This document shows, in pieces, positions 21,346 to 64,000 of a stretch of 64,000 nucleotides of DNA; position 1 is the first letter of the stretch, and each line of letters begins with the position of its first letter. Below the pieces are notes generated by a model. It worked only from the letters and a program-made list of their open reading frames with translations, did not search any database and was not told the origin of the DNA. Source of the stretch: Streptomyces sp. NBC_01267 (lineage in GTDB: Bacteria > Actinomycetota > Actinomycetes > Streptomycetales > Streptomycetaceae). The translations under genes were made by a program, and so were the position numbers. Location of the stretch: NCBI RefSeq assembly GCF_036241575.1, contig NZ_CP108455.1, positions 4,591,501 to 4,655,500 on the forward strand, written 5' to 3'.

Positions 21346-21441
21346 TATTCGCGATCTTCGTCCGGACGGCGGGGCGAGCGAGGCGGACGAGCCGGCCCGA
21401 TGCGGTCCAACGGTCAAGGACGACTGGAAGGAGCGAGGAGC

Positions 21442-21801: not shown

Positions 21802-21818
21802 GGGGCTGAGGGGCACCT

Positions 21819-29184: not shown

Positions 29185-30551
29185 CGAACTACTACCTCGC
29201 GGCGACCGAGGACCTGTCCATGTTCGGACGGGACCCCTGGTGGCTGGTCGTCGTCAAGGCGGTCTTCTGCTTCGCCTTCCTGATGCTCACCGTGCTCTTC
29301 GCCATCGTGTGGGAGCGCAAGGTGGTCGCCTGGATGCAGCTGCGCATCGGGCCCAACCGGCACGGCCCCTGGGGCATGCTCCAGTCGCTGGCCGACGGCA
29401 TCAAGCTGATGCTGAAGGAAGACCTGGTCGTCAAACGGGCGGACAAGTTCGTCTACATCCTCGCGCCGGTCGTCGCCGCGGTGCCCGCCTTCATGGCGAT
29501 CGCGGTCATCCCGTTCGGCCCCTCGGGCAACGAGGTGTCGATCTTCGGCCACCGCACGACGATGCAGCTCACCGACCTGCCGATCGCGATGCTCTACATT
29601 CTCGCGGTCGCCTCGGTCGGCATCTACGGCATCGTCCTCGCCGGATGGTCGTCGGGTTCGACGTACCCGCTGCTCGGCGGTCTGCGCTCGTGCGCCCAGA
29701 TGATCAGCTACGAGATCGCGATGGGCGCGGCGTTCGCCTCGGTCTTCCTCTACTCGGGGTCGATGTCCACCTCGGCGATCGTCGACGCACAGAAGGACCG
29801 CTGGTTCATCGTGCTGCTGCCGGTCTCCTTCATCATCTACATCGTCACGATGATCGGTGAGACCAACCGCGCCCCGTTCGACATGCCGGAGTCCGAGGGC
29901 GACCTGGTCGGCGGCTTCAACACCGAGTACTCGTCGATCAAGTTCGCGATGTTCATGCTGGCCGAGTACGTCAACATGGTCACCGTCTCGGCGGTCTCCG
30001 CGACGCTCTTCCTGGGCGGCTGGCGGGCCCCCTGGCCGATCTCCACCTTCTGGGAGGGGGCGAACCACGGCTGGTGGCCGATGCTCTGGTTCGTCATCAA
30101 GGTCCAGCTGCTGCTGTTCTTCTTCATCTGGCTGCGCGGGACACTGCCCCGCGTCCGCTACGACCAGTTGATGAAGCTGGGCTGGAAGGTCCTGATCCCG
30201 GTCTCGGTGGTCTGGCTGATGCTGGTGGCGACCGTACGGGCGCTGCGCAACGCCGACTACGACTACTCCCGGATCGTGCTCTACGGAGCCGGGGCCGTCG
30301 TGGCGATCCTGCTGCTGTCCTTCGTCTACGACATCTTCCGCGACAAGCAGGAGAAGCAGGAACAGGCGGCGGCCGACGCGGCAGGACCGGGGCCGGCCTT
30401 CGACCCGATGGCGGGCGGCTTCCCCGTACCGCCCCTGCCCGGACAGACCCTTCCCCCCGTACCCCGGCGGCCTTCGCGCACGGAGCGGGAGCTGATTGTC
30501 AGTGGTGGCGTGGACACTGTGAGTGACGGAAAGGAGGCTGACGATGCCTGA
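29181..30551 (+). CDS. nuoH: NADH-quinone oxidoreductase subunit H
   Basis: This 456-residue membrane subunit at the joint of the two arms has eight or nine transmembrane helices, [22 protein letters not shown] and the quinone-site loop [26 protein letters not shown]. The C-terminus is extended by about 60 Pro-rich residues past the last helix. GTG 29181 overlaps nuoG by 4 bp, and its last 8 bp overlap nuoI. It couples quinone reduction to proton movement. Confidence 0.97.
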
Positions 30552-31176
30552 CCGCTCTACTGAGGCTTCCGGGGACGAGACCCCCAAGGCTCCCTGGCAG
30601 AACCCGGTGGCCGGCTTCGGCGTGACCTTCAAGGCCATGTTCAAGAAGCGGCTGACCGAGCAGTACCCGGAGCAGGAGAAGACCACGGCGCCGCGCTTCC
30701 ACGGGCGGCACCAGCTCAACCGGCATCCGGACGGACTGGAGAAGTGCATCGGGTGCGAGCTGTGCGCCTGGGCCTGTCCGGCGGACGCGATCTACGTGGA
30801 GGGCGCGGACAACACCGAGGAGGAGCGCTACTCCCCGGGCGAGCGGTACGGCCGCGTCTACCAGATCAACTACGCCCGCTGCATCCTGTGCGGACTCTGC
30901 ATCGAGGCCTGCCCGACCAGGGCGCTGACGATGACCAATGAGTTCGAACTGGCCGACAGCAGCCGGGCGAACCTCATCTACACCAAGGAGCAGCTGCTCG
31001 CCGGTCTCGACGAGGGCATGGTCGAATCGCCGCACTCGATCTTCCCGGGCACCGACGAACAGGACTACTACCGGGGGCTGGTGACCGAGGCCGCCCCGGG
31101 CACCGTCCGCCAGGTCGCGGTCTCCAAGGGCGAGACACCCTCGGACGGGGCACCGAAAGAGGGGGCGGGGGCGTGA
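30544..31176 (+). CDS. nuoI: NADH-quinone oxidoreductase subunit I
   Basis: This 210-residue 8Fe ferredoxin-like subunit has two complete 4Fe-4S motifs, [16 protein letters not shown] and [16 protein letters not shown], carrying N6a and N6b. They link NuoG to cluster N2 in NuoB. ATG 30544 is preceded by GGAAAGGAGG, the strongest ribosome-binding site in the operon, and lies inside the end of nuoH. The C-terminal 45 residues are Gly/Ala-rich and probably disordered. Confidence 0.97.
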
Positions 31177-32015
31177 ACTACCTGACCTCCACCGGTGAGG
31201 CCTTCCAGTTCTGGGTGCTGGGCACCGTCGCCGTGATCGGCGCGCTGTCCACCGTACTCATGCGGCGGGCCGTGCACAGCGCGCTGAGCCTCGCCGGAAC
31301 CATGATCGTCCTGGCGGTCTTCTACCTCGCCAACGGCGCGTACTTCCTGGGCATCGTCCAGATCGTCGTCTACACCGGCGCGATCATGATGCTCTTCCTC
31401 TTCGTGGTCATGCTGGTCGGTGTCACCGCCGCCGACTCGCTGAAGGAGACCATCAAGGGGCAGCGCTGGCTGGCCGTGCTCTGCGGGCTCGGCTTCGGCA
31501 TCCTGCTGATCGCCGGTATCGCCAACGCCTCGCTGAAGACCTTCACCGGCCTGGGCCAGGCCAACTCCGCGGGGAACGTCCAGGGCCTCGCCGCCCTGAT
31601 CTTCACCAAGTACGTCTTCGCCTTCGAGATCACCGGCGCGCTGCTCATCACCGCGGCCGTCGGCGCGATGGTGCTCACCCACCGCGAGCGGTCCGAACGG
31701 GCCATGACCCAGCGGGAGATGTCCGAGGAGCGCGTACGCGGAAGGCAGGTTCCCCCGCTGCCCGCTCCCGGTGTCTACGCCCGGCACAACGCCGTGGACA
31801 TCGCGGGACTGCTGCCGGACGGGACGCCCTCGGAGCTCACCGTCATGCAGACGCTCCGCCGCCGCGGTCAGATCCGCGACGTGTCGAGCGAGGCCATGGC
31901 CAACCTCAAGGCGCTGGAACAGCGCTCCGAGGAGCGGCTCGGCCGGGACGCCGGACACGGTCACGACGCCGAACTGCCCGGTGACCACGACCGCGAAGAG
32001 GAGGAGGCGAAGTGA
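31173..32015 (+). CDS. nuoJ: NADH-quinone oxidoreductase subunit J
   Basis: This 280-residue membrane subunit has five transmembrane helices in the first 175 residues, including the [20 protein letters not shown] helix with its pi-bulge, which takes part in coupling. The remaining 105 residues form a charged cytoplasmic tail ending in a His/Asp/Glu-rich stretch, longer than in E. coli (184 residues) but usual in streptomycetes. GTG 31173 overlaps nuoI by 4 bp. Confidence 0.96.
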
Positions 32016-32311
32016 ACCCGGTCAACTATCTGTATCTCGCCTCGCTGTTGTTCACCATCGGCGCGGCCGGGGTGCTGATCAGGCGGAACGCGATCGTGGT
32101 GTTCATGTGCGTGGAGCTGATGCTCAACGCCTGCAACCTCGCGTTCGTCGCCTTCTCCCGTATGCACGGAAATCTCGACGGCCAGGTCATCGCCTTCTTC
32201 ACGATGGTCGTTGCCGCCGCCGAGGTCGTGGTCGGGCTCGCGATCATCGTGTCGCTCTTCCGTTCCCGCCACTCGGCCTCGGTCGACGACGCCAGCCTGA
32301 TGAAGCTGTAA
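32012..32311 (+). CDS. nuoK: NADH-quinone oxidoreductase subunit K
   Basis: This 99-residue membrane subunit has three helices and the conserved acidic residue in [16 protein letters not shown], followed by [17 protein letters not shown] with a second Glu. Both glutamates are part of the proton path in the MrpC-like subunit. GTG 32012 overlaps nuoJ by 4 bp. Confidence 0.97.
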
Positions 32312-32325
32312 GGGGTCGCTGAACA

Positions 32326-34221
32326 GTGGAGAACTTGATTGCGCTGCTGATTGCAGCGCCTTTGCTCGGAGCGGCGGTACTGCTCTGCGGCGGGCGGCGG
32401 TTCGACCGTGCCGGCCACTGGCTCGGCACGCTCTTCGCCGGTGCGTCGTTCGTGATCGCGGCCGTCCTCTTCGTGAACATGCTGGGCAGGAGCGCGGACC
32501 ACCGCACCCTGCACCAGCACCTGTTCACCTGGATCCCGGTGGGCGGCTTCCGGGCCGACGCCGCCTTCCAGCTCGACCAGCTGTCGATGACGTTCGTCCT
32601 GCTGATCTCCGGTGTGGGCACGCTGATCCACATCTACTCGATCGGCTACATGGAGCACGACGAGCGGCGCCGCCGCTTCTTCGGCTACCTGAACCTCTTC
32701 CTCGCGGCGATGCTGCTGCTGGTCCTCGCCGACAACTACCTGCTGCTGTACGTCGGGTGGGAGGGCGTCGGTCTGGCGTCGTACCTGCTGATCGGCTTCT
32801 GGCAGCACAAGCCGAGCGCGGCGACGGCGGCCAAGAAGGCCTTCATCGTCAACCGCGTCGGTGACATGGGCCTGTCGATCGCGATCATGCTGATGTTCAC
32901 CACCTTCGGGACCTTCGCCTTCGGCCCGGTCCTGTCCACCGCGGGGCACGCCTCGGAGGGCAAACTCACCGCCATCGGGCTGATGCTGCTGCTCGCCGCC
33001 TGCGGCAAGTCCGCACAGGTGCCGCTGCAGTCCTGGCTCGGTGACGCGATGGAGGGCCCGACCCCGGTCTCGGCCCTGATCCACGCGGCGACGATGGTGA
33101 CGGCGGGCGTGTACCTGATCACCCGGTCCGGCGCGATCTTCAACCTGGCCCCCGACGCGCAGATGGCGGTCGTGGTGGTCGGCGCGGTGACGCTCCTCTT
33201 CGGTGCGATCGTCGGTTGCGCGAAGGACGACATCAAGAAGGCCCTCGCGGGTTCGACGATGTCGCAGATCGGCTACATGATCCTCGCGGCCGGGCTCGGC
33301 CCGATCGGCTACGCCTTCGCGATCATGCACCTGGTCACCCACGGCTTCTTCAAGGCCGGACTCTTCCTCGGCGCCGGATCGGTCATGCACGGCATGAACG
33401 ACGAGGTGGACATGCGGAAGTACGGCGGCCTGCGGAAGTACATGCCGGTGACGTTCGTGACCTTCGGGCTCGGCTATCTCGCGATCATCGGCTTCCCCGG
33501 CCTCTCCGGGTTCTTCTCCAAGGACAAGATCATCGAGGCGGCCTTCGCCAAGGGCGGCACCGAGGGCTGGATCCTCGGCGGCGCGGCCCTGCTGGGCGCC
33601 GGGATCACCGCGTTCTACATGACCCGGGTCATGCTGATGACGTTCTTCGGCGAGAAGCGCTGGGTGCCCGACGCGGACGGCAACCAGCCGCACCCGCACG
33701 AGTCGCCCAAGTCGATGACCATCCCCATGATCATCCTGGCGTTCGGTTCGGTCTTCGCCGGAGCGTTCTTCGGGATCGGCAACCGCTTCCTGCACTGGCT
33801 GGAGCCCGTCACCGGCCATGCCGAGGGCAATTCGCCGGTCAGCGCGGGCGTGGTCACCGCCGGGACGATGGTGGTCCTGGTGATCGGCGCCGTCATCGCC
33901 TGGCTGGTCTACGGCCGCAAGCCCGTCCCGGCAGTGGCGCCCAAGGGCTCGCTGCTCACCCGCGCCGCCCGGCGCGATCTCCTCCAGGACGACTTCAACC
34001 ACGTCGTTCTGGTCCGCGGCGGCGAACACCTCACCCGGTCGCTGGTCTATCTCGACCACAGCCTGGTGGACGGTGTCGTCAACGGCACCGCCGCCTCGGT
34101 CGGCGGCCTCTCGGGACGGCTGCGCAAGCTGCAGAACGGCTACGCCCGGAGTTACGCGGCCTCGATGTTCGGCGGCGCAGTGATTCTCGTCGCCGCGACC
34201 CTGCTGATGAGGGCGGTCTGA
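32326..34221 (+). CDS. nuoL: NADH-quinone oxidoreductase subunit L
   Basis: This 631-residue antiporter-like subunit is at the distal end of the membrane arm. It has about 16 helices; the conserved proton-channel residues are visible in [18 protein letters not shown] (Glu) and [37 protein letters not shown] (Lys and His). The C-terminal lateral helix runs from about residue 520. GTG 32326 is 14 bp after nuoK, the widest gap within this part of the operon. It pumps one proton per cycle with NuoM and NuoN. Confidence 0.97.
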
Positions 34222-34226
34222 TCACG

Positions 34227-35807
34227 ATGTCCTTTCCTCTCCTGACGGCAACAGCCGCGCTCCCGGCGGTCGGTGCGGTCGTCACCGCCGCGGTCCCGGC
34301 CGCGCGGCGCACGGCGGCGAAGTGGCTGGCGCTGCTGTTCTCGCTCGGCACGCTCGTCCTGGGCGCCGTCCAGTTCGTACGGTTCGAGCCCGGCGGCGCG
34401 CGCTACCAGCTCACCGAATCGCACGCCTGGATCAAGGACTTCGGGGTGCGGTACGAACTGGGCGTGGACGGGATCGGTCTGGCGATGCTCGCCCTGACCG
34501 CCCTGCTCATCCCGTTCGTGATCCTGGCCGGCTGGCACGACGCCGACCCCCTGGAGACACACAGTTCGCGGTGGCGGCCCACCCAGGGCTTCTTCGCCCT
34601 GATCCTGGCCGTCGAAGCGATGGTGATCCTCTCCTTCGAGGCCACCGACGTCTTCCTCTTCTACATCCTCTTCGAAGCCATGCTCATCCCGATGTACTTC
34701 CTCATCGGCGGCTTCGGGGACCGGGCGCACGCCCAGGGCGACGAGGCGGCGGCGACCCAACGCTCGTACGCGGCGGTCAAGTTCCTCCTCTACAACCTGG
34801 TCGGCGGCCTGCTCATGCTGGCCGCGGTCATCGGCCTCTACGTGGTCGCGGGGAACTTCTCGCTCCAGGACATCGTCGCGGCACGGGCCAACGGCTCGCT
34901 GCACATGGCGACCAGCACCGAGCGCTGGCTCTTCCTCGGCTTCTTCTTCGCCTTCGCGGTGAAGGCGCCGCTGTGGCCGCTGCACACCTGGCTGCCCAAC
35001 GCCATGGGTGAGGCGACCGCCCCGGTCGCCGTGCTGATCACCGCCGTGGTCGACAAGGTCGGCACGTTCGCGATGCTGCGCTTCTGCCTCCAGCTCTTCC
35101 CCGAGGCGAGCAAGTGGGCCACTCCGGTGATCCTGGTGCTCGCGCTGATCAGCATCATCTACGGCGCGCTGCTCGCGGTCGGCCAGCGCGACATCAAGCG
35201 GCTGATCGCCTACGCGTCGGTCTCGCACTTCGGCTTCATCATCCTGGGCATCTTCGCGATGACCACCCAGGGCCAGTCGGGCGCGACGCTCTACATGGTC
35301 AACCACGGGATCTCCACGGCCGCCCTGATGCTGGTGGCCGGGTTCCTGATCTCGCGGCGCGGATCGCGGCTCATCGCCGACTACGGCGGGGTGCAGAAGG
35401 TGGCCCCGGTGCTCGCCGGGACCTTCCTGATCGGCGGTCTCGCGACGCTGTCGCTGCCCGGCCTGTCGCCGTTCGTCAGTGAATTCCTGGTCCTGGTGGG
35501 CACGTTCAGCGCCTACCCGGCCGCCGGGATCGTCGCGACCATCGGCATCGTGCTCGCCGCGCTCTACGTCCTCGTCCTCTACCAACGGACGATGACGGGC
35601 CCGGTCAAGGCCACCGTGCAGGGGATGGCGGACCTCAAGGTCCGTGAACTGGTCGTCGTACTGCCGCTGATCGCGCTGCTGGTCTTCCTCGGTGTCTATC
35701 CGAAGCCGCTGACGGAGATCGTCGACCCGGCCGTGAAGCACACGATGTCCGACGTTCAGAAGAAGGACCCCCGTCCTTCCCAGCCCGCAGTGGAGGCCGC
35801 GAAGTGA
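34227..35807 (+). CDS. nuoM: NADH-quinone oxidoreductase subunit M
   Basis: This 526-residue antiporter-like subunit has about 14 helices, with FYILFEAMLIPMYFLIGGFG (channel Glu), VKAPLWPLHTWLPNAMGEATAPVAVLIT and a further Lys in QRDIKRLIAYASVSHFGF. ATG 34227 lies 5 bp after the nuoL stop; the same frame is open far upstream, but that part is the shadow of nuoL. The ribosome-binding site (GGGCGG) is distant, so translation may depend on nuoL. Confidence 0.96.
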   Translation: MSFPLLTATAALPAVGAVVTAAVPAARRTAAKWLALLFSLGTLVLGAVQFVRFEPGGARYQLTESHAWIKDFGVRYELGVDGIGLAMLALTALLIPFVILAGWHDADPLETHSSRWRPTQGFFALILAVEAMVILSFEATDVFLFYILFEAMLIPMYFLIGGFGDRAHAQGDEAAATQRSYAAVKFLLYNLVGGLLMLAAVIGLYVVAGNFSLQDIVAARANGSLHMATSTERWLFLGFFFAFAVKAPLWPLHTWLPNAMGEATAPVAVLITAVVDKVGTFAMLRFCLQLFPEASKWATPVILVLALISIIYGALLAVGQRDIKRLIAYASVSHFGFIILGIFAMTTQGQSGATLYMVNHGISTAALMLVAGFLISRRGSRLIADYGGVQKVAPVLAGTFLIGGLATLSLPGLSPFVSEFLVLVGTFSAYPAAGIVATIGIVLAALYVLVLYQRTMTGPVKATVQGMADLKVRELVVVLPLIALLVFLGVYPKPLTEIVDPAVKHTMSDVQKKDPRPSQPAVEAAK

Positions 35808-37456
35808 GCGCAACAGCTGTCCACAGCCTGTGGACAATGGGGGCGGTCGGCCCCATCGGCAAGATTCCGGCTCCCCACATCGAGTACGCGCAGCTCTCAC
35901 CCGTGCTGATCATTCTCGGTGCCGCGATGCTGGGCGTCCTCGTCGAGGCCTTCGTGCCGCGCAGGGGCCGTTACTACGCCCAGGTGTTCCTCACGGTCGT
36001 GGCCATCGCCGCCTCCTTCGCGGCGGTCGTCGCGCTGGCGGCCGGTGGATACGGCTCGACCAAGGCGCACATCGCGGCCATGGGCGCGGTCGCGGTCGAC
36101 GGGCCCGCGCTGTTCCTCCAGGGCACCATCCTGCTGGCCGCGCTGGTCGCGGTCTTCACCTTCGCCGAGCGCAGGCTCGACCCCGAGGTGCACGGCAACC
36201 GCGTCGACTCGTTCGCCGCCCAGGCCGCGTCCGTACCGGGCAGCGAGAGCGAACAGGAGGCGGTCAAGGCCGGGTTCACCACCACCGAGATCTTCCCGCT
36301 CGCGCTCTTCGCGGTCGGCGGCATGCTGGTCTTCCCGGCGGCCAACGACCTGCTGACGCTCTTCGTGGCGCTGGAGGTCTTCTCGCTCCCGCTCTACCTC
36401 ATGTGCGCCCTCGCCCGCCGCAAGCGGCTGATGTCGCAGGAGGCCGCGGTGAAGTACTTCCTGCTCGGGGCCTTCTCGTCCGCCTTCCTGCTCTTCGGGA
36501 TCGCGCTGCTCTACGGGTACGCGGGCTCCGTCTCGTACGCCCGCATCGCCGCGGTCGTCGACGGCACCGTGCAGAACGTCGACCCGGCGCTCGCCGACAC
36601 CATGGGCAACGACGCGCTGCTGCTCATCGGCGGCGCGATGATCCTGATGGGGCTGCTCTTCAAGGTCGGTGCCGTGCCGTTCCACATGTGGACCCCGGAC
36701 GTCTACCAGGGCGCCCCGACCCCGGTCACCGGCTTCATGGCGGCGGCCACCAAGGTCGCCGCGTTCGGCGCGCTGCTGCGGCTGCTGTACGTGGTGCTGC
36801 CGGGCATGCGCTGGGACTGGCGGCCGGTCATGTGGGCCGTCGCGATCATCACCATGCTGGGCGGTGCGATCGTCGCGATCACCCAGACCGACATCAAGCG
36901 GATGCTGGCGTACTCGTCGATCGCGCACGCCGGGTTCCTCCTGGCCGGTGTCATCGCGACCACGCCCGAGGGCATCAGCTCCGTCCTCTTCTACCTGGTG
37001 ACGTACTCCTTCGTGACGATCGGCGCGTTCGCCGTGGTCACGCTGGTGCGGGACGCGGGCGGCGAGGCGACGCACCTGTCCAAGTGGGCCGGGCTCGGGC
37101 GCCGTTCACCCCTGGTGGCGGCGGTCTTCGCGGTCTTCCTGCTCGCTTTCGCGGGCATCCCGCTCACCAGCGGGTTCAGCGGGAAGTTCGCGGTGTTCAA
37201 GGCGGCGGCGGACGGCGGGGCCGGCGGCCTGGTCGTGGTCGGTGTGATCTCCTCGGCCATCGCCGCGTTCTTCTACATCCGGGTCATCGTGCTGATGTTC
37301 TTCAGCGAGCCGAAGGCCGACGGCCCGACGGTCGCCGTCCCGTCGGCACTGACGACGACGACCATCGCGGTGGGCGTCGCGGTCACGCTGGTGCTGGGCC
37401 TCGCGCCGCAGTACTTCCTGGACCTGGCGAGCCAGGCGGGAGTCTTCGTCCGGTAG
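35804..37456 (+). CDS. nuoN: NADH-quinone oxidoreductase subunit N
   Basis: This 550-residue antiporter-like subunit is the last gene of the operon. Signatures include [20 protein letters not shown] (channel Glu), [34 protein letters not shown] and [20 protein letters not shown]. About 14 helices are expected. GTG 35804 overlaps the nuoM stop by 4 bp. A strong hairpin follows 70 bp downstream. Confidence 0.97.
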
Positions 37457-54490: not shown

Positions 54491-55588
54491 CTATCCGGCG
54501 ACCGTCCAGGTGTCGCCGCCCGCGAGCAGAGCGGCCAGGTCGCCCTTGCCCTTCTGCTCGACGGCCGCTTCCAGCTGGTCGGACATCAGGGTGTCGTAGA
54601 CCGGGCGCTCGACGTCACGGAGGACGCCGATGGGGGTGTGGTGCAGCGTGTCGGCGTCGGCCAGCCGGGAGAGCGCGAAGGCCGTGGTCGGTGACGTGGC
54701 GTGCGCGTCGTGGACCAGGATCTGCGACTCGTTCTCCGGGGTGACCGCCACGACCTGGAGGTCACCGGTCGCGTGGTCGCGTACGACACCCTTCGCGCCG
54801 TCGGCACCGAAGCGGATCGGCTGCCCGTGCTCCAGACGGATCACCGCCTCCTGGGCCTGCTCCCTGTCCTTGAGGACCTCGAAGGCGCCGTCGTTGAAGA
54901 TGTTGCAGTTCTGGTAGATCTCCACCAGCGCCGTGCCCGGGTGGTCGGCGGCGGCGCGGAGCACGCTGGTGAGGTGCTTGCGGTCGGAGTCGACGGTACG
55001 GGCGACGAACGACGCCTCGGCGCCGATCGCCAGCGAGACCGGGTTGAAGGGTGCGTCGAGCGAGCCCATCGGCGTCGACTTGGTGATCTTCCCGACCTCG
55101 GAGGTGGGGGAGTACTGACCCTTGGTCAGCCCGTAGATCCGGTTGTTGAACAGCAGGATCTTGAGGTTGACGTTGCGGCGCAGGGCGTGGATGAGGTGGT
55201 TGCCGCCGATGGACAGCGCGTCGCCGTCACCCGTGACCACCCAGACACTCAAGTCCCGCCGGGACGAGGCGAGTCCGGTCGCGATGGCCGGGGCGCGGCC
55301 GTGGATGGAGTGCATCCCGTAGGTGTTCATGTAGTACGGGAATCGGGAGGAGCAGCCGATGCCGGAGACGAAGACGATGTTCTCTCTGGCCAGGCCGAGT
55401 TCGGGCATGAAGCCCTGGACGGCGGCGAGGACCGCGTAGTCGCCGCAGCCGGGGCACCAGCGGACTTCCTGGTCGGACTTGAAGTCCTTCATGGACTGCT
55501 TGGCCTCGGCCTTCGGCACCAGCTGGAGCAGGTCGTTCCCTGCGCCACCCGGCTGCCCGTGGCCCTGCGGCGAGTCGATCTCAGGCAT
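54491..55588 (-). CDS. korB: 2-oxoacid:ferredoxin oxidoreductase, beta subunit
   Basis: This 365-residue thiamin-diphosphate subunit has the TPP motif TGDGDALSIGGNHLIHALRRNVNLKILLFNN (about residues 140-170) and 4Fe-4S cysteines in WCPGCGDY, GIGCSSRFP and QNCNIFND. With the alpha subunit it oxidises a 2-oxo acid (2-oxoglutarate most likely) with CoA and reduces ferredoxin. The KorA/KorB naming follows the actinobacterial 2-oxoglutarate enzyme; pyruvate is an alternative. ATG 55588 overlaps the alpha-subunit gene by 8 bp. No ferredoxin domain is fused, so a separate ferredoxin is needed. Confidence 0.93.
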   Translation of the reverse strand: MPEIDSPQGHGQPGGAGNDLLQLVPKAEAKQSMKDFKSDQEVRWCPGCGDYAVLAAVQGFMPELGLARENIVFVSGIGCSSRFPYYMNTYGMHSIHGRAPAIATGLASSRRDLSVWVVTGDGDALSIGGNHLIHALRRNVNLKILLFNNRIYGLTKGQYSPTSEVGKITKSTPMGSLDAPFNPVSLAIGAEASFVARTVDSDRKHLTSVLRAAADHPGTALVEIYQNCNIFNDGAFEVLKDREQAQEAVIRLEHGQPIRFGADGAKGVVRDHATGDLQVVAVTPENESQILVHDAHATSPTTAFALSRLADADTLHHTPIGVLRDVERPVYDTLMSDQLEAAVEQKGKGDLAALLAGGDTWTVAG

Positions 55589-57536
55589 CGTTGGCCTCCT
55601 TGAGGGCCGTGGCGAGCTGCTCAGCCTTGAACGGCATTCCGTTGACCTGGTTGTACGAGACCGCGTCGACCAGGTACTTCGCACGGATCAGGGTGGCGAG
55701 CTGGCCCAGGTTCATCTCGGGCACCACGACCTTGTCGTACCGCTTCAGCACCTCGCCGAGGTTGCCCGGGAAGGGGTTGAGGTGGCGCAGATGGGCCTGC
55801 GCGATGGCGGTGCCCTCGGTGCGCAGCCGGCGGACGGCCGCGGTGATCGGGCCGTAGGTGGAGCCCCAGCCCAGGACCAGCGTGGTCGCGTGGTCCGGGT
55901 CGTCGACCTCCAGGTCGGGGACCTCGATGTTGTCGATCTTGGCCTGCCGGGTGCGGACCATGAAGTCGTGGTTGGCCGGGTCGTAGGAGATGTTCCCGGT
56001 GCCGTCCTGCTTCTCGATCCCGCCGATCCGGTGCTCCAGACCGGGCGTGCCGGGGACCGCCCAGGGGCGGGCGAGGGTCTCCGGGTCGCGCTTGTACGGG
56101 TAGAAGACCTCGGTCCCGTCGGCCAGCTCGTGGTTGGGCCCGGTGGCGAACTGGACCCGCAGGTCCGGGAGTTCACCGGTGTCCGGGATGCGCCACGGTT
56201 CCGAGCCGTTCGCGAGGTACCCGTCGGACAGCAGGAACACCGGGGTCCGGTACGTCAGGGCCATCCGGGCCGCGTCCAGGGCGGCGTCGAAGCAGTCCGC
56301 GGGCGTCTTCGGCGCGATCACCGGGACCGGTGCCTCGCCGTTGCGCCCGTACATCGCCTGGAGCAGGTCCGCCTGTTCGGTCTTGGTCGGCAGCCCGGTG
56401 GAGGGGCCGCCGCGCTGGATGTCGATGATCAGCAGCGGCAGTTCCAGCGACACCGCGAGACCGATCGTCTCCGACTTGAGCGCCACACCCGGACCGGACG
56501 TGGTGGTGACCGCCAGCGACCCGCCGAACGCGGCGCCCAGCGCCGCGCCGATCCCCGCGATCTCGTCCTCCGCCTGGAAGGTCCGCACACCGAAGTTCTT
56601 GTGCTTGGACAGCTCGTGCAGGATGTCGGACGCCGGGGTGATGGGGTACGAGCCGAGGTAGAGCGGCAGGTCCGCCTGGCGGCCCGCGGCGATCAGCCCG
56701 TACGACAGGGCCAGGTTCCCGCTGATGTTGCGGTAGGTCCCGGTCGGGAAGGCCTTGGTGGCCGGGGCGACCTCGTAGCTGACCGCGAAGTCCTCGGTGG
56801 TCTCCCCGAAGTTCCAGCCCGCCCGGAACGCCGCGACGTTGGCCTCGGCGATCTGCGGCTTCTTCGCGAACTTCGTCCGCAGGAACCGCTCGGTGTTCTC
56901 CGTCGGCCGGTGGTACATCCACGACAGCAGCCCGAGCGCGAACATGTTCTTGCTGCGCTCGGCCTCCTTGCGCGGCAGGCCGAACTCCTTCAGCGCCTCG
57001 ATCGTGAGCGTCGTCAGCGGCACCGGATGGACCTGGTAGGCCTCCAGCGACCCGTCCTCCAGCGGACTGGTCGCGTAACCGACCTTCGCCATCGGGCGCT
57101 TGGTGAACTCGTCCGTGTTCACGATGATGTCCGCGCCCCGCGGCACATCGGCGATGTTCGCCTTCAGCGCCGCCGGGTTCATCGCGACCAGCACGTTCGG
57201 TGCGTCGCCGGGGGTGAGGATGTCGTGGTCAGCGAAGTGCAGCTGGAACGACGAGACGCCCGGCAGGGTACCTGCGGGCGCGCGGATCTCGGCGGGGAAG
57301 TTCGGCAGCGTCGACAGGTCGTTCCCGAACGACGCGGTCTCCGAGGTGAAGCGGTCGCCGGTGAGCTGCATCCCGTCACCCGAGTCCCCCGCGAACCGGA
57401 TGATCACCCGATTCAGTCGGCGTACCTCTTTGGCGTCGGAGCCCTCTTTGCCGACAGAAGGGGCACGTTGTTCCCCGAGAAGGGCCTCATCGGCCTCATC
57501 GGCCTGCTCGGCTGGGCTACTGACCTGGCTGGTCAC
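55581..57536 (-). CDS. korA: 2-oxoacid:ferredoxin oxidoreductase, alpha (gamma-alpha fused) subunit
   Basis: This 651-residue subunit has the gamma domain first (VIIRFAGDSGDGMQLTGDRFTSETASFGND, then LPNFPAEIRAPAGTLPGVSSFQLHF) and the pyrimidine-binding alpha domain after (YPITPASDILHELSKHKNFGVRTFQAEDEIAGIGAALGA, TTSGPGVALKSETIGLAVSLELPLLIIDIQRGGPSTGLPTKTEQADL). This fused order is typical of the oxygen-tolerant actinobacterial enzyme. GTG 57536 has GGGAGG upstream at 10 bases; the frame remains open to 57746. A 23-bp dyad lies in its leader at 57603. Confidence 0.93.
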   Translation of the reverse strand: MTSQVSSPAEQADEADEALLGEQRAPSVGKEGSDAKEVRRLNRVIIRFAGDSGDGMQLTGDRFTSETASFGNDLSTLPNFPAEIRAPAGTLPGVSSFQLHFADHDILTPGDAPNVLVAMNPAALKANIADVPRGADIIVNTDEFTKRPMAKVGYATSPLEDGSLEAYQVHPVPLTTLTIEALKEFGLPRKEAERSKNMFALGLLSWMYHRPTENTERFLRTKFAKKPQIAEANVAAFRAGWNFGETTEDFAVSYEVAPATKAFPTGTYRNISGNLALSYGLIAAGRQADLPLYLGSYPITPASDILHELSKHKNFGVRTFQAEDEIAGIGAALGAAFGGSLAVTTTSGPGVALKSETIGLAVSLELPLLIIDIQRGGPSTGLPTKTEQADLLQAMYGRNGEAPVPVIAPKTPADCFDAALDAARMALTYRTPVFLLSDGYLANGSEPWRIPDTGELPDLRVQFATGPNHELADGTEVFYPYKRDPETLARPWAVPGTPGLEHRIGGIEKQDGTGNISYDPANHDFMVRTRQAKIDNIEVPDLEVDDPDHATTLVLGWGSTYGPITAAVRRLRTEGTAIAQAHLRHLNPFPGNLGEVLKRYDKVVVPEMNLGQLATLIRAKYLVDAVSYNQVNGMPFKAEQLATALKEANDA

Positions 57537-57602
57537 TGAACTGGACCTCCCTCGTCGAGGCGGCTGCTCGGACGGGCCCGGCTGGCCGGGCGCACCGGAT
57601 CC

Positions 57603-57625
57603 CACCCTACGTCGGTAAGGGTGGC
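57603..57625 (-). promoter_or_regulatory. Dyad CCACCCT-N9-AGGGTGG in korA leader
   Basis: A perfect 7-bp inverted repeat lies 67 bp upstream of the korA GTG on the minus strand. No known box (Rex, Fur, DmdR) matches. Candidate operator or leader hairpin. Confidence 0.45.
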
Positions 57626-57710
57626 CTTCCCTTGAGGGCTCATAGAGCGGACACCATTCCGATGCAGTGGATTGCCCCGGTTTGTCATGACTGAACCGTC
57701 CCCCGGCCCC

Positions 57711-57739
57711 CCGGCGCCCCCTCGGGGAGGGGGCGCCGG
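57711..57739 (-). terminator. Terminator of response-regulator transcript
   Basis: CCGGCGCCCCCTC (57711-57723) and GAGGGGGCGCCGG (57727-57739) form a perfect 13-bp stem with a 3-base loop, about 85 bp after the stop codon of the response regulator on the minus strand. A smaller dyad, CTGACA-GGG-TGTCAG (57804-57818), lies just after that stop. Confidence 0.75.
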
Positions 57740-57822
57740 TACTCATCCTTTGGTTCTAGGTCCCGCCCCGTCCGGCATCGCCGCGGGGCCGCGACCTCGC
57801 TATCTGACAGGGTGTCAGGTAA

Positions 57823-58494
57823 TTAGGAGTTCAGGTAGGTCAGCACCGCGAGCACCCGACGGTGATCCCCGTCACTCGGCGAGAGGCCGAGCTTCAGGAA
57901 GATGTTGCTGACGTGCTTCTCGACCGCTCCGTCACTGACCACCAGCTGCCTGGCGACGGCGGAATTCGTACGCCCCTCGGCCATCAGCCCCAGTACCTCG
58001 CGCTCGCGCGGCGTCAGTCCCGCCAGGACGTCCTGCTTGCGGCTGCGGCCCAGCAGCTGTGCCACCACCTCGGGGTCGAGCGCGGTCCCGCCCTGCGCCA
58101 CCCGGACCACGGCGTCCACGAACTCCCGGACCTCGGCGACCCGGTCCTTCAGCAGATAGCCGACGCCCCGGCTGGATCCGGCCAGCAGCTCGGTGGCGTA
58201 CTGCTCCTCCACGTACTGCGAGAGGACCAGGACCCCGATGCCCGGGTACTCCTTGCGCAGCCGTACGGCCGCCCGTACGCCCTCGTCGGTGTGGGTGGGC
58301 GGCATCCGGACGTCCGCGACCACCACATCCGGCAGTGCTTCCTGCGCCGCGAGGTCCGCGATCGTCTTGATCAGCGCCTCCGCGTCCCCCACGCCTGCGA
58401 CCACGTCGTGACCGAGGTCGGTCAACAACCGGGTCAGGCCCTCCCGCAGCAGCACTGAATCCTCGGCGATGACCACACGCACTCTGTCCTCCAC
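57823..58494 (-). CDS. LuxR-type (NarL/DesR) response regulator
   Basis: This 223-residue response regulator has a receiver domain with acidic pocket [14 protein letters not shown], phosphorylation site [12 protein letters not shown] (Asp about residue 60) and switch Lys in YLLKDRV, and a C-terminal LuxR helix-turn-helix ([45 protein letters not shown]). GTG 58494 was chosen by receiver-domain alignment; GGGGGG lies 10 bases upstream. It is downstream of two histidine kinase genes on the same strand and is probably the common target of both. Confidence 0.92.
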
Positions 58495-58769
58495 GACGCT
58501 GAAGCCCCCCAGTTGATGATGATGTCCGCCCTGCTCGCACCAGCATCCCAGCATCGGTGCCGGTGTGGGCGGGGGCCGAGGGGGAAGTATCGGATCCCCC
58601 CGCTCGCAATCGCGCCGAGCGAGGGACAAAGTATCTGATATTCCCCGGAGTTCATCACCTCGGGGCTACGTCACCTTCGGGGCTTCGTCACGTGGACGGC
58701 CGGTGCGGGACAGCGGGCGGTGGGCCGTGGGGCCGGGCCCGGTCGGACGGCGGTGCTTCCGGGACGCGC

Positions 58770-60104
58770 TCAGCCGCGCCAGGGCAGTTCGGCGGTGATG
58801 CTCGTCGGGCCGCCCACCGGGGAGTCGACGACCAGCAGCCCGTCGACCGCGTCCAGCCGCTCCGCCAGCCCCGCGAGACCGCTGCCCGCGGTGCCCGCCG
58901 CCGAGTCGTCGCCGGGCCCGCCGGCGCCGCCGCGGCCGTTGTCGGTGACCTGGAGCATGAGCCGGTTCTCCACCTGCCAGACGTCCACCGTCGCCCGGGT
59001 CGCCCGGGAGTGCTTGCTGACGTTCTGGAGGAGCTCGGAGACCGTGAAGTAGGCGATGCCCTCGATGGCGGCGGCCGGCCGGTGCGGCAGGTCCACCTCG
59101 ACCTGCACCGGCACCGTGCAGCGCGAGGCGATCGAGGAGAGTGCGGCGTCCAGGCCGCGGTCGGTCAGTACGGCCGGGTGGATGCCCCGGGCCAGGTCAC
59201 GCAGTTCCTGAAGGGCGACCTTCACCTCGCCGTGCGCCTCGTCGACCATCCGCGCCGCCGCCTCCGGGTCCGCCGTCAGCTTCTCCTTGGCCAGGCCCAG
59301 GTCCATGGCGAGCGCGACCAGCCGGGCCTGCGCCCCGTCGTGCAGATCCCGTTCGATCCTGCGCAGGTCGGCCGCCGCGGTGTCCACGACCACCCCGCGG
59401 TCCGATTCGAGTTCCGTCACCCGGGTGTCCAGCCGCGACGGGCCGAGCAGCCCCACCACCAGCAGCCGGTCCACGGAGGCCAGCCCGCGGATCACCCAGG
59501 GGGTGACGAGGACGAAGACCAGACCGGTCAGGCTGGTCAGGCCGATCTCGAGGGGGTTGTCCAGGTAGACGTTGTGCGCCCCGTCGCCGTACAGCTGGAT
59601 GCCGCCCTGGTGGGTGTAGGCCGGGAAGATCCACTGCCACAGCGGGTACGTCAGCGTCGCCCAGCCGGTCGTCCACAGCGTCACCGACACCACGAAGGCG
59701 AAGACCGCCCACGGGAAGTGCACCAGCGAGTAGACGAGGTGGCGCCAGGACGCCCCGCTCTTCAGGACGGCGCCCACCCACGACATCGCGCCGCCGGTCC
59801 TGCCCCGCACGGGAGCCGGGTCCCGCACATCGGCCCTCAGCAGCGCCCGCGCGCGGGCCCGCTCCATCGCCCCGAAGCCGCGGCAGGCGGCCAGCCCGAC
59901 GGCGAGCAACGGGATGCCGAGGAAGGTGATCACCAGGCCGACCCCCGCCGAGAACATCGTGATCCCGAAGGAGAACATCACGATGCTGATCGGCAGCGAC
60001 AGCAGCAGATACCCGAACTCGCGCCAGGTGCGCCCCTCGAACGGTGCCCGCAGCGCCGCAGGCACACGGTGGTCCCGGGTGCGAATGCCGTAATCCGTGG
60101 CCAT
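58770..60104 (-). CDS. Sensor histidine kinase (HisKA_3), second copy
   Basis: This 444-residue sensor kinase has four to five membrane helices in the first 220 residues (DUF4153/PspC-like sensor region with the insert TYPLWQWIFPAYTHQGGIQLYGDG, probably extracytoplasmic) and a coiled linker LDTRVTELESDRGVVVDTAAADLRR. The dimerisation box is IERDLHDGAQARLVALAM (phospho-His) and the HATPase_c domain has N box ELLQNVSKHSRA and GLAGLAERL. ATG 60104 is used; an ATG at 60116 is equally possible. The kinase core is nearly identical in DNA to the adjacent kinase gene. Confidence 0.9.
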   Translation of the reverse strand: MATDYGIRTRDHRVPAALRAPFEGRTWREFGYLLLSLPISIVMFSFGITMFSAGVGLVITFLGIPLLAVGLAACRGFGAMERARARALLRADVRDPAPVRGRTGGAMSWVGAVLKSGASWRHLVYSLVHFPWAVFAFVVSVTLWTTGWATLTYPLWQWIFPAYTHQGGIQLYGDGAHNVYLDNPLEIGLTSLTGLVFVLVTPWVIRGLASVDRLLVVGLLGPSRLDTRVTELESDRGVVVDTAAADLRRIERDLHDGAQARLVALAMDLGLAKEKLTADPEAAARMVDEAHGEVKVALQELRDLARGIHPAVLTDRGLDAALSSIASRCTVPVQVEVDLPHRPAAAIEGIAYFTVSELLQNVSKHSRATRATVDVWQVENRLMLQVTDNGRGGAGGPGDDSAAGTAGSGLAGLAERLDAVDGLLVVDSPVGGPTSITAELPWRG

Positions 60105-60298
60105 GGCGTCGTCCATTCCTGCTCGGCTGGCTGGTGTCTTGGTTACACGTCCATGGTGCTGGGCCGGGGAGGCGCGGACCATGAGGCGGAGCACCGTCTT
60201 CGACCGGGGGTTTTCCCCACCCCCTGGTCCGGGGCCGGGGCCGGAGAGACTCCAGGAATGCGGCCGGCCGGGATACGGCGTACGGCGGCCGGGACGGC

Positions 60299-61465
60299 TC
60301 AGCCGCGGTCCCGCCAGGGCAGTTCCGCCGTCACCGTGGTCGGTCCGCCGACCGGCGAGTCCAGCACGAAGAGGCCGTCGACCGCGCCGAGCCGGTCGGC
60401 GAGCCCCGCCATACCCGTACCGCCGTCCATCCGCGCACCACCGCGCCCGTCGTCCTGGACCTGGATCAGCAGCCGGTCGGCCGAGCGCCACACCTCGACG
60501 GACGCGGAGCGCGCCCGGGCGTGCTTGCTGACGTTCTGGAGGAGCTCCGAGACCGTGAAGTACGCGATTCCCTCGATGGCCTCGGCGGGCCGCTCCGTCA
60601 GATCGACGCTGACCTTCACCGGCGCCGTGCAGCGCGAGGCGATCGAGGAGAGTGCGGCGTCGAGGCCGCGGTCGGTCAGTACGGCGGGGTGGATGCCCCG
60701 GGCCAGATCGCGCAGCTCCTGAAGGGCCAGCTTCACCTCGCCGTGCGCCTCTCCGACCATCACGGCCGCGGCGTCCGGATCCTCCAGAAGCTTCTCCTTG
60801 GCCAGGCCGAGCCCCATGGCGAGCGCGACCAGCCGGGCCTGCGCCCCGTCGTGCAGATCCCGTTCGATCCGGCGCAGGTCGGCCGCCGCGGTGTCCACGA
60901 CCACCCCGCGGTCGGACTCCAGCTCGGCGATCCTGCGCTCCAGTTCGTCGGAGGGCGAGAGGAGGCCGCGGACCATCGCCCGGTCGACGTTGGTCAGCCC
61001 CCGTGCGATGAACGGAAGGACCGGCCACAGTACGAAGAGACTCGGCATGACCACGGCGAACGTCAGCACCCCCCACGGCAGCCGGATGAACTCGTACAGC
61101 ACCGTCCGCCAGCCCACCGGGTCCTTCAGGCCCGCCCACAGCCGGTTGAAGAACCCGCCGCCCCCGGTGACCAGACGGCTCGGCTCGTCCACCCGCACAC
61201 CGAGCAGCGCCCTGGCGCGGGCCCGCTCCAGTTTGCCGAGCTGACGGGCGCCGAGCAGTCCGGCGGCGAGCATCGGCAGCCCGACGACGGTGACCGCCAG
61301 GCCGCTGCCGGTGGCAACCATGAACACGACGTAAATAAATCCGACCAGGGACGTGGGCAGATTGGACAGGAGATGCGCGATCTCCTTCCAGGTGTGCCGC
61401 TCGAACGCAAAGCGCACGGGCGGCGGCCGGTCGGAGTCGAGCGGGCGGGAGTTCGTCGCGGTCAT
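60299..61465 (-). CDS. Sensor histidine kinase (HisKA_3), first copy
   Basis: This 388-residue paralogue of the next gene has an N-terminal membrane domain (FAFERHTWKEIAHLLSNLPTSLVGFIYVVFM and two further helix pairs) that lacks the extracytoplasmic insert of the other copy. The dimerisation box IERDLHDGAQARLVALAM is identical, and the ATPase domain has ELLQNVSKHARA, DDGRGG and GMAGLADRL. It is divergent from the second nuo cluster across 200 bp. The two kinases and one response regulator form a likely branched two-component system. Confidence 0.92.
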   Translation of the reverse strand: MTATNSRPLDSDRPPPVRFAFERHTWKEIAHLLSNLPTSLVGFIYVVFMVATGSGLAVTVVGLPMLAAGLLGARQLGKLERARARALLGVRVDEPSRLVTGGGGFFNRLWAGLKDPVGWRTVLYEFIRLPWGVLTFAVVMPSLFVLWPVLPFIARGLTNVDRAMVRGLLSPSDELERRIAELESDRGVVVDTAAADLRRIERDLHDGAQARLVALAMGLGLAKEKLLEDPDAAAVMVGEAHGEVKLALQELRDLARGIHPAVLTDRGLDAALSSIASRCTAPVKVSVDLTERPAEAIEGIAYFTVSELLQNVSKHARARSASVEVWRSADRLLIQVQDDGRGGARMDGGTGMAGLADRLGAVDGLFVLDSPVGGPTTVTAELPWRDRG

Positions 61466-61554
61466 GTGTCAAGCCTGCCGGGCCTCGGGGGCGGATGCCA
61501 TGGGGTAGCTGGGTGGGATGAAGTAGGGATAACCCCACCCCCTGTGCCCGATCC

Positions 61555-61588
61555 ACTTGCTTACCAAGTCTTTAGCAGGGCCTAGACT
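61555..61588 (+). promoter_or_regulatory. Promoter of second nuo cluster with overlapping dyad
   Basis: TAGACT (61583-61588) is a good -10 box; CTTACC (61560-61565) gives a 17-bp spacer. ACTTG-CTTAC-CAAGT (61555-61569) is a perfect dyad over the -35 region, a likely operator position. The start codon is about 80 bp downstream. No Rex-type site was found here. Confidence 0.55.
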
Positions 61589-61666
61589 CCCGTGCGTACG
61601 GATCGTCGAACGCGACGAATGTGACGGACGAGGCGACGAACAGGGCGCAGGGAGCGAGGGGCGGAC

Positions 61667-62089
61667 GTGCCGGGACCCACCGTTCTCGCGGCGGACCACA
61701 CGGATCTCGCGGCGGACCACACCGGATATTTCCACACCTACGCGGTCGTCGGCGTGCTCGCGGTCGTCGGTGTGCTCTTCGTCGCCGTGGCCTTCGGGGC
61801 CGGACGGCTGCTGCGGCCCGTGGTGCCGACGCCGGAGAAACTGCTGACGTACGAGTGCGGGGTCGACCCCGTCGGCGAGGGCTGGGCCCACACCCAGGTC
61901 CGCTACTACGTCTACGCCTTCCTCTACGTGATCTTCGCCGTCGACTCGATCTTCCTCTTCCCGTGGGCGACGGTCTTCGCGGCCAGCGGGTACGGGGCGG
62001 CCACGCTGGTGGAGATGTTCATCTTCCTCGGCTTCCTGGCCGTGGGACTGCTCTACGCATGGAAGAAGGGCGTCCTCGAATGGACGTGA
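61667..62089 (+). CDS. nuoA2: NADH-quinone oxidoreductase subunit A, second copy
   Basis: This 140-residue subunit has three transmembrane helices and the family loop [33 protein letters not shown], distinct from the first copy (KLEAYECGIEPTP). The N-terminus has an added 20 residues with duplicated LAADHT. GTG 61667 follows GAGGGG. It is the first gene of the second complex I cluster and overlaps nuoB2 by 10 bp. Confidence 0.93.
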
Positions 62090-62706
62090 CGAACCCGGCC
62101 GAACTGCCCGTGGTGTCCAGCAGCGGCCCCGCCGCCGGGCAGGCGCCGTCCGCCGCACCGCAACGCCTGGGCGTGCTCTCCCGGCTGGCGCCCGAGCCCA
62201 TGAAGGTGGTCCTCAACTGGGGCCGCCGGTACAGCCTGTGGGTCTTCAACTTCGGCCTCGCCTGCTGCGCGATCGAGTTCATCGCCGCCTCGATGGCCCG
62301 CCACGACTTCATCCGCCTCGGCGTGATCCCGTTCGCACCGGGCCCGCGCCAGGCCGACCTGATGATCGTCTCCGGCACCGTCACGGACAAGATGGCCCCG
62401 GCGGTCAAGCGGCTGTACGAGCAGATGCCCGAGCCGAAGTACGTCATCTCCTTCGGCGCGTGTTCCAACTGCGGCGGCCCTTACTGGGACTCGTACTCGG
62501 TGACCAAGGGCGTCGACCAGATCATCCCCGTCGACGTGTACGTGCCCGGCTGCCCGCCGCGTCCCGAGGCGCTGCTCCAGGGCATCCTGAAACTCCAGGA
62601 GAAGATCGCCAGGGAATCCCTGGGCGAGCGCTACTCCGCGCCCACCACCGCCCAGTTGACCAGCGGCCTCATCACCCCGCCGACGGCGCCGGGGGCCGGC
62701 CGGTGA
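62080..62706 (+). CDS. nuoB2: NADH-quinone oxidoreductase subunit B, second copy
   Basis: This 208-residue N2-cluster subunit has all ligands conserved ([32 protein letters not shown]), so electron transfer is expected to work. A 40-residue Pro/Ala/Ser N-terminal extension is present. Codon usage is normal for the genome, in contrast to the central part of nuoB of the first operon. ATG 62080 lies within the end of nuoA2; the stop overlaps the nuoC2 GTG by 4 bp. Confidence 0.94.
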
Positions 62707-63953
62707 CGCACGCGTACGACCGGCTGCCCGAAGCCGTCACCGAACTCTTCGGCGCGGACGCCACCGCCGAGCACAGCTACGACCTGCTGACCGTCGACGT
62801 CCCGGCCGCCTCGTGGATCTCCGCGCTGGAGACCGCCAGGGACCGGCTCGGCTGTACCTACTTCGACTGGCTGAGCGCCGTCGACGAACCGGGCACCGGC
62901 TTCCGGGTCTGCGCCCACGTGGTGGCGCTCGAGGGCCGTACGGTCCGCCGTCTGCTCGTACGCACCACCGTCCCGCACTCCGAGCCGGTGCTGCCGTCCG
63001 CCGTCGAGGTCTACGCGGGCGCGAGCTGGCACGAGCGTGAGACGCACGAGATGTTCGGCGTCGCCTTCACTGGCCATCCGCACCTGGTGCCGCTGCTGCT
63101 GCCCGAGAACTTCGAGGGCCACCCGCTGCGCAAGGACTTCGTCCTCGCGGCCCGGGTCGCGAAGGCGTGGCCCGGAGCGAAGGAGCCGGGGGAGTCGTCT
63201 GCCGGACACGCAGCCGGTGGGGCCGCTGGTGGGGCCGCTGGTGGGGCCAAGCGCCGTCAGATGCTGCCGCCCGGTGTTCCCGACCCCAACGAATGGGGCC
63301 CGCAGAAGGGCCAGCTCCCACCGGCTCCGACCCGCCCGGCCCGTGCCGCGCGGGCGGCGGGCGACCGCCCGGTACGTCGCGCGCGCAGCGTGAGCGAGGG
63401 CTCGGCGAGCCAGTCGACGGAGACCCCGGCGGAGACGCCGACGACGGAGACCCCGACGGTGGAGACGCGGGCGGCCGGTACCCGGGCGGCCGGACCCCAG
63501 GGGGCCGAGGCTCCTGCGGACCGGTCATCCGAGGCGCCGCGAACCCCGCCCCCGGCAGCACCCGCGTCCCCGCGGCGGAGCCGCAGCGTGTCCGAGGGAT
63601 CCACGTCCCAGCGGGCACCGCAGGGCGCCACCCCGGCGGGCAGCGACGACGCGCCCTGGCGCAACGCCAGGCCCACCTTCGACCCGACGGACGCCGAGGC
63701 TCCGGCAACCCCGCCTCGCACACCGGCCGATACCGATACCGAAGCCGAAGCCGAAGCCGAAGCCGAAACGGAACCCGGCACGACCCCGGAGCCGGGAGCG
63801 AAGGCCGGACCCGGCGCCACCCCGGAACCGGAACCGGAACCGGAGACCGACCCCGGCACCGGCACCGGCACTGCCACCGCCCCTGAACCTGACCCCGACC
63901 CCACGCCCGACCCCGCTGACCCCGATCCCCGCGCCGGAGGCGATACCGCGTGA
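62703..63953 (+). CDS. nuoC2: NADH-quinone oxidoreductase subunit C, second copy, with long disordered tail
   Basis: This 416-residue protein is a normal 30-kDa-family domain in its first 160 residues (signature [42 protein letters not shown]). A tail of about 250 residues follows, rich in Pro, Ala, Thr, Glu and Gly, with two copies of a motif RSVSEGS(A/T)SQ (about residues 226-237 and 297-308) and runs of EA, GT and PEPEP. The tail comes partly from hexanucleotide repeats. GTG 62703 overlaps nuoB2; the stop overlaps the next gene, nuoH2. No nuoD follows. Confidence 0.9.
63741..63841 (+). repeat. Hexanucleotide repeats in nuoC2 tail
   Basis: GAAGCC occurs four times (63741-63764), GGAACC three times (63824-63841), and GGCACC-like units follow. 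All keep frame and encode EA, PE and GT dipeptides. GGAACC is the same unit as in the GNAT gene at 8554. Confidence 0.85.
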
Positions 63954-64000
63954 ACGACGTACTCGGCGTCGCCATCCGGCTGGTCATCGTCTTTGTCGTG
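63950..64000 (+). CDS. nuoH2: NADH-quinone oxidoreductase subunit H, second copy (5' end only)
   Basis: GTG 63950 overlaps the nuoC2 stop by 4 bp and starts [17 protein letters not shown], a hydrophobic first helix like that of NuoH. Only 17 codons are inside the window. Gene order C2 then H2 is as in the second nuo clusters of other streptomycetes, which lack D, E, F and G. The identification rests on that order and the start sequence. Confidence 0.6.
   Translation, partial: MNDVLGVAIRLVIVFVV

Follow-up and report, generated by a model that had tools for sequence, protein, structure and literature searches.

A second, probably eleven-subunit complex I with a displaced nuoD in Streptomyces, and its likely soluble derivatives in Actinobacteria

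The stretch analyzed here, termed the window, comprises 64,000 nucleotides of the 8.07 Mb genome of Streptomyces sp. NBC_01267 (contig NZ_CP108455.1, here C1, positions 4591501-4655500). It contains an operon for the ordinary respiratory complex I (nuo1, which includes the E and F genes) and the beginning of a second cluster of complex I genes, nuo2, which is the subject of this study. The genes nuoA2, nuoB2, nuoC2, and nuoH2 lie on the same strand with overlapping ends, and their products match the corresponding Pfam families above cut-off (Table I). In the rightward extension of the sequence (L004, C1:4645500-4665400) the cluster continues as a ten-gene run, A2-B2-C2-H2-I2-J2-K2-L2-M2-N2, beyond which lie mscL and an htpX-like gene for an M48 peptidase. 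An earlier note on this DNA had described nuoA2-B2-C2 and a NuoH-like start, D, E, F, and G being absent between C and H, and had read these genes as a second complex I without an NADH module. Pfam matches and gene reading bear out the description, and the gene content supports the reading: no nuoD, E, F, or G was found in the nuo2 cluster through to its right end, a result that covers the cluster, NuoF not having been searched for elsewhere in this genome.

Ten subunits are 32-52% identical to those of operon 1, a range in which NuoB is not counted. NuoL2 and NuoM2 pass NCBIfam subfamily cut-offs, and NuoN2 scores 315.7 bits on TIGR01770, under the cut-off of 332.6. NuoB2 retains all four cysteine ligands of the iron-sulfur cluster N2, as the same note had stated, and two 4Fe-4S motifs are present in NuoI2. 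NuoI2 (L004:10997-11620) also has a ninth conserved cysteine (CPDWC) beyond the eight cluster ligands, found in 41/41 sequences counted and absent from the NuoI1 of the window. The low-complexity tail of NuoC2 is ~250 residues long, and a PPGV motif follows the 30-kDa domain in most aligned relatives.

A whole-genome Pfam search returned two NuoD genes, that of operon 1 and another, whose match came in two pieces. This gene, nuoD2, lies outside the window, ~232 kb from nuoA2 and directly after a gene for an NDUFAF7/MidA-type methyltransferase. Genes for A, B, C, D, and H to N are all present for the nuo2 complex, with D away from the cluster. Among 20 nuo2 genomes read, the C2-H2 junction was visible in 19, none of which has D at the junction (0/19).

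Table I. Genes of the two complex I loci and their surroundings. Positions without a prefix are those of the window.
Feature	Position	Strand	Basis
nuo1 (A to N), ordinary complex I operon	21439..37456	+	Open reading frames (ORFs) compared with nuo2; PF01257 (E), PF01512 (F)
korB, thiamine pyrophosphate-binding beta subunit; true start probably inside ORF	54491..55684	-	PF02775, 102.5 bits (cut-off 21.9)
korA, 2-oxoacid:acceptor oxidoreductase alpha subunit; true start probably inside ORF	55581..57746	-	TIGR03710, 658.6 bits (cut-off 482.75)
Response regulator (AbrC3-like by gene order)	57823..58629	-	PF00072, PF00196 over cut-off; name from PMC9239103, PMC9739823 (excerpts)
Histidine kinase (AbrC2-like by gene order)	58770..60104	-	PF13796, PF07730, PF02518 over cut-off
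Histidine kinase (AbrC1-like by gene order)	60299..61465	-	PF13796, PF07730 over cut-off; PF02518 just under
nuoA2	61667..62089	+	PF00507, 111.8 bits (cut-off 23.3)
nuoB2, N2-cluster subunit	62080..62706	+	PF01058, 101.6 bits (cut-off 27); Cys 62, 63, 128, 158
nuoC2, 416 residues; 30-kDa domain (31-151) and long low-complexity tail	62703..63953	+	PF00329, 116.3 bits (cut-off 22.5)
nuoH2 start; gene continues past window edge (L004:9951-10919)	63950..64000	+	PF00146, 334.2 bits (cut-off 27)
I2-J2-K2-L2-M2-N2, after nuoH2, outside window	to L004:17784		Reading of extended sequence
nuoD2, full-length NuoD, 380 residues	C1:4419666-4420808 (L011:9667-10809)	-	Whole-genome Pfam search
NDUFAF7/MidA-type methyltransferase gene, adjoining nuoD2	L011:10823-11908	-	PF02636

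The NDH-1 complexes of cyanobacteria and chloroplasts comprise A, B, C, D, and H to N without E, F, and G, and ferredoxin is their proposed donor. nuo2 resembles them in both respects, but differs in having nuoD split off beside a methyltransferase gene, a Trp at the quinone-site Tyr position of NuoD2, the ninth NuoI cysteine, and derivatives without a membrane arm. By all signs, the nuo2 of the window is the known Streptomyces cluster, and it is better read as a complete eleven-subunit complex I with a displaced nuoD2. In the excerpts of published work drawn on throughout this study, Streptomyces is described as having extra nuoA2, B2, D2, and H2 to N2 genes, contiguous save nuoD2, with data suggesting one operon (PMC3765725); S. 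ambofaciens is similar, its nuoJ2 apparently being a pseudogene (PMC8388888). A third account has nuo2 lacking CDEFG and L and possibly forming a hybrid (PMC9239103). The window cluster is the same by content and neighbors, and a separate nuoD2 is already in print. However, the excerpted accounts list no nuoC2 and one gives L as missing, whereas C2 and L2 are both present here, and these excerpts contain nothing on in-operon relatives, the methyltransferase link, or membrane-less sets. Rex is reported to control nuoA1-N1, and nuo2 is not among the targets given in the excerpt (PMC5355995).

The distribution of these genes was followed in 148 genomes from 35 families of the same class; the genomes are related, so the counts are not independent, and no correction was made for descent within families. 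NuoD2 was called from full-length matches of at least 40% identity, with one genome (G138, 38%) added since it has the B2-C2-I2 trio. NuoH2 is encoded in 40/148 genomes, every one of which also has NuoD2. NuoD2 occurs in 65/148, made up of these 40, 24 membrane-less genomes described below, and one left undecided (G060), where the contig ends after A2-B2-C2 and the NuoD loop is still present. The NuoB2-C2 locus was read in all 25 NuoD2 genomes lacking NuoH2, and NuoI2 was seen in 23 of them; a class with NuoD2 only was therefore rejected. G129 was also rejected as a member, its extra B and D sitting in another cluster.

These counts bear on the proposal of the earlier note that Nuo2, lacking its own D, borrows the one from operon 1, a hybrid machine also suggested in PMC9239103. 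D is indeed missing from the nuo2 cluster, but nuoD2 accompanies nuoH2 in 40/40 genomes and, as set out below, lies inside the operon in other classes. In one genome, G111 (draft, 60 contigs, estimated 100% complete), the single NuoH, NuoB, and NuoD matches are all of nuo2 type, and neither a NuoF match, a KorA match, nor any sign of operon 1 was found in that draft; NuoD there cannot well be borrowed. The window's own genome also has its nuoD2. Borrowing finds no support in these observations, and a hybrid is very improbable.

Relatives of nuo2 were sought in 100 genomes from other classes of Actinomycetota, and 20 loci were read in stretches of up to 20 kb. In 13/20, A2-B2-C2-D2-H2-I2-J2-K2-L2-M2-N2 forms one 11-gene run, although L is closer in score to NuoL1 in four of these. 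The methyltransferase gene directly follows N2 in 4 of the 13 runs. In four more loci no more than 2 kb separates D2 from the methyltransferase gene, the two being apart from nuo2 or cut off from it. The remaining three loci (L279-L281) are more distant complexes. In a NuoD tree the 43 NuoD2 sequences of the class form a single clade (support 0.96) nested inside the clade of in-operon D proteins. The nearest group consists of three split-off loci (L265, L269, and L270), so the split of D may predate the class. On the simplest reading of these sequences, nuoD2 and the methyltransferase gene moved out of an ancestral operon as a pair. Two public records of metagenome-assembled genomes titled Bifidobacterium breve (L186, L188) have a nuoD2 like those of the other uncultured actinobacterial assemblies listed, and their titles are probably wrong.

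The distribution of the methyltransferase follows that of NuoD2. The enzyme too is found in 65/148 genomes: 61 have both, 4 NuoD2 only, 4 the methyltransferase only, and 79 neither (by family, 22/1/2/10, p = 3.7e-6). PF02636 occurs once only in the genome of the window. An eleven-sequence methyltransferase profile matches the solved NDUFAF7 homolog 5ztz in the PDB with E = 1.7e-21, and its matches to 4f3n and 1zkd are stronger still; phmmer, run against the PDB with a single methyltransferase sequence, gave no match. In-frame stops appear in ~20 of the methyltransferase matches, and in 10/10 loci checked the stop is at the gene end. NDUFAF7 dimethylates Arg85 of NDUFS2, the human homolog of NuoD (PMC3829151). 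The position of this target is Arg in 43/43 NuoD2 sequences of the class and Thr in the NuoD1 of the six genomes read. The enzyme thus resembles NDUFAF7/MidA in family, profile match, and the target Arg in its presumed substrate, and differs in that it is predicted to act on NuoD2 and has a distribution that follows NuoD2.

The subunits B, D, I, and H are also related to those of group 4 membrane-bound hydrogenases, and NuoD2 matches 6cfw and 7z0s. NuoD2 lacks, however, the paired CxxC nickel ligands of a membrane-bound [NiFe] hydrogenase.

A locus of reduced content is found in 24 genomes from 12 families, which have nuoB2-C2(-I2) together with nuoD2 and no membrane-arm gene beside them, save remnants of A2 and H2 in G026. 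The trio occupies the place that nuo2 has in the window: nuo1 and a polyprenyl synthase gene precede the trio, and an htpX-like or yajQ-like gene follows (the polyprenyl synthase and M48 families were confirmed by family search for the window; yajQ was assigned by reading). Genome-wide, the nuo1 copy of NuoH is present in all 24. Additional NuoH matches are distant homologs in G011, G018, and G026, the H2 remnant of G026, and a short piece at a second place in G032. In G026, which is assembled as one contig, A2 and H2 are partly deleted, J2-N2 were not found, and B2, C2, and I2 are matched.

A tree of concatenated B, C, D, and I sequences places G026, the pair G014/G141, and a large clade of membrane-less sets separately among the full sets, with supports of 96-100. 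These three nested placements indicate that the membrane arm was lost at least three times. The quinone-site loop motif of NuoD, E-x-G-(A/G)-(I/M/L)-(T/S)-P, is kept in 18/18 full sets, as is the quinone-site His, and the motif is kept in 1/24 membrane-less genomes (G026, a recent loss). In the other 21 membrane-less genomes, lost sites that are conserved in full sets cluster in the NuoD loop, in NuoB around the CC pair, and in the NuoI N-terminus, while cofactor ligands are retained. From complex I structures we take these segments to border on the quinone chamber and the membrane arm.

It is likely, from these patterns of conservation, that the membrane-less set functions in its own right as a soluble fragment of complex I. 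Its most likely form would be a soluble iron-sulfur oxidoreductase that takes electrons from a donor and passes them, via I2 and B2, to a nonquinone acceptor or a partner near D2. Neighbor clustering revealed no recognizable conserved new redox partner gene beside the trio. That the set is instead a functionless, decaying remnant of nuo2 would fit the partly deleted A2 and H2 of G026, the longer branches of the large membrane-less clade, and ratios of nonsynonymous to synonymous substitution (dN/dS) mostly above those of full sets. The N2 ligands nevertheless stand in one open frame in 24/24 membrane-less genomes by motif search (NuoB is intact in G023 and G047), and all nine NuoI cysteines in 23/23 where NuoI was seen (the stretch from G014 ends after C2), across the 12 families. 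Pairwise dN/dS is 0.17-0.55 in membrane-less sets, highest at the very low dS of G014/G141, against 0.13-0.37 in two full-set pairs; it is below 1 in every usable comparison, the NuoB comparison of G032 and G047 (0.82) having been left out. These values point to selection that still acts, somewhat relaxed. The sets are also kept in genomes as small as 1.5 Mb (G120) and 2.6 Mb (G100), and simple decay is quite unlikely. A spare peripheral arm docking on the nuo1 membrane arm, as the frequent position of the trio close after nuo1 might suggest, is also unlikely, since segments that would be expected to contact a membrane arm are among those eroded. We lean towards the view that Actinobacteria repeatedly made a soluble four-subunit iron-sulfur enzyme (NuoB-C-D-I) by dropping the whole pump, mostly keeping the NDUFAF7-like enzyme for D, and that its chemistry proceeds without a membrane quinone.

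The absence of an NADH module from nuo2 makes a ferredoxin-type donor the natural guess, and ferredoxin is the likely donor of Nuo2 by gene content. The earlier note had proposed a ferredoxin-fed unit supplied by the nearby 2-oxoacid oxidoreductase KorAB. Its gene order is correct, korAB and nuo2 being separated by genes for a response regulator and two histidine kinases, and its ferredoxin stands as a reasonable proposal, but KorAB as the partner is a weak, if possible, candidate. As to the co-occurrence of korAB and nuo2, KorA is present in 39/40 genomes with nuoH2 vs 79/108 without, and 59 of the 148 genomes have both NuoD2 and KorA, 6 NuoD2 only, 59 KorA only, and 24 neither (by family, p = 0.11). 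It may well be, though we would stop short of calling it probable, that korAB stands by nuo2 through inherited gene order only and that Nuo2 receives electrons from other donors. This explanation is favored by the family-level result and by three further observations: korAB adjoins nuo1, without nuo2, in 5/8 korAB loci read from genomes without nuoD2; korAB was not matched in the 20 stretches from other classes; and KorA is lacking in 6/65 nuoD2 genomes. G111 lacks KorA, which cannot well be the donor there. Conversely, korA lies within ~11 kb of nuo2 in 25/40 nuoH2 genomes (by eye; in 14 it is on another contig or far away, and in one there is none), and korAB is beside the nuoB2-C2 locus in 14/25 nuoD2 genomes lacking nuoH2.

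Taken together, the data are best explained by an eleven-subunit complex I without an NADH module, with a displaced D and its methyltransferase, whose soluble B2-C2-D2-I2 part was kept after at least three losses of the membrane arm; as a whole, this explanation is probable. A low-potential carrier, such as ferredoxin reduced by KorAB or another enzyme, would deliver electrons at NuoI2, from which they would pass via N2 in NuoB2 to reduce menaquinone at a site formed by B2, D2, and H2, with protons being pumped. The methyltransferase would modify NuoD2 at Arg55. Three or more lineages would have lost the membrane arm, with soluble NuoB2-C2-D2-I2 retained under selection.

Several observations weigh against this explanation. 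At the position of the quinone-binding Tyr of known complex I (Nqo4 Tyr87), Trp stands in 43/43 NuoD2 sequences of the class, so the quinone chemistry may differ; Trp is also found there in 17/20 loci of the other classes and in 80/80 named loci (80 of 561 confirmed stretches). Apart from the two motifs of NuoI2, no ferredoxin-type CxxCxxCxxxC motif occurs in the nuo2 cluster. NuoD2 lacks a methyltransferase match in G100, G110, G120, and G138, and the methyltransferase is found without NuoD2 in G033 (a weak, short match), G059, G066, and G146. Three D proteins outside the clade also have Arg at the NDUFAF7 position, and the stretches read around their genes gave no methyltransferase match. 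Membrane-less status rests on a genome-wide search for NuoH (protein and profile) and on inspection for A and J-N beside the trio. The concatenated tree has one distant outgroup, and several of its other deep nodes are weak (20-60). Finally, complex formation, donor, and methylation are deduced from sequence, at one remove from the observed gene content, in-operon relatives, and shared distribution.

The usual view is that complex I arose when a soluble hydrogenase-like module joined a membrane pump. The reverse step, loss of the pump, seems here to have been repeated, in genomes open to comparison at the level of single genes and in one case with remnants of the lost genes. The membrane-less sets, in which B, C, D, and I outlast the pump, appear to be new and would surprise a specialist; for this phylum, no paper on them or on the methyltransferase link was found in the open-licence literature, consulted mostly as listings. 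They offer natural material for telling the parts of the quinone module that work in electron transfer from those that work in coupling. NDUFAF7, an assembly factor of human complex I, gains a bacterial setting in which it is paired with one specific NuoD. The AbrC1-C3 two-component system beside nuo2 has been tied to antibiotic production with opposite signs (PMC9239103, PMC9739823), and the supposedly incomplete nuo2 next to it has the full eleven genes.

Some minor observations concern individual loci. Unrelated genes are inserted within the nuo2 cluster of G139 and G082 (L097, L098), where most subunit genes are still matched, and G030 has two NuoH2 copies on separate contigs (L108, L109). 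A third PF01058 gene of the Streptomyces sp. NBC_01267 genome (C1:210512, L007) lies near a gene with the motif RICGIC, probably a [NiFe] hydrogenase locus as judged by reading, no family search having been made. Actinomyces oris was not among the 80 of 561 confirmed stretches listed in the named-genome nuoD2 scan. In that species, a Tn5 hit in ana_2659 is named Ni/Fe-hydrogenase III large subunit (row 23, Table 1, PMC5478893); by row order in the excerpt it falls in the weak coaggregation class with nuoM, nuoH, and nuoI, and the gene could be a nuoD2.

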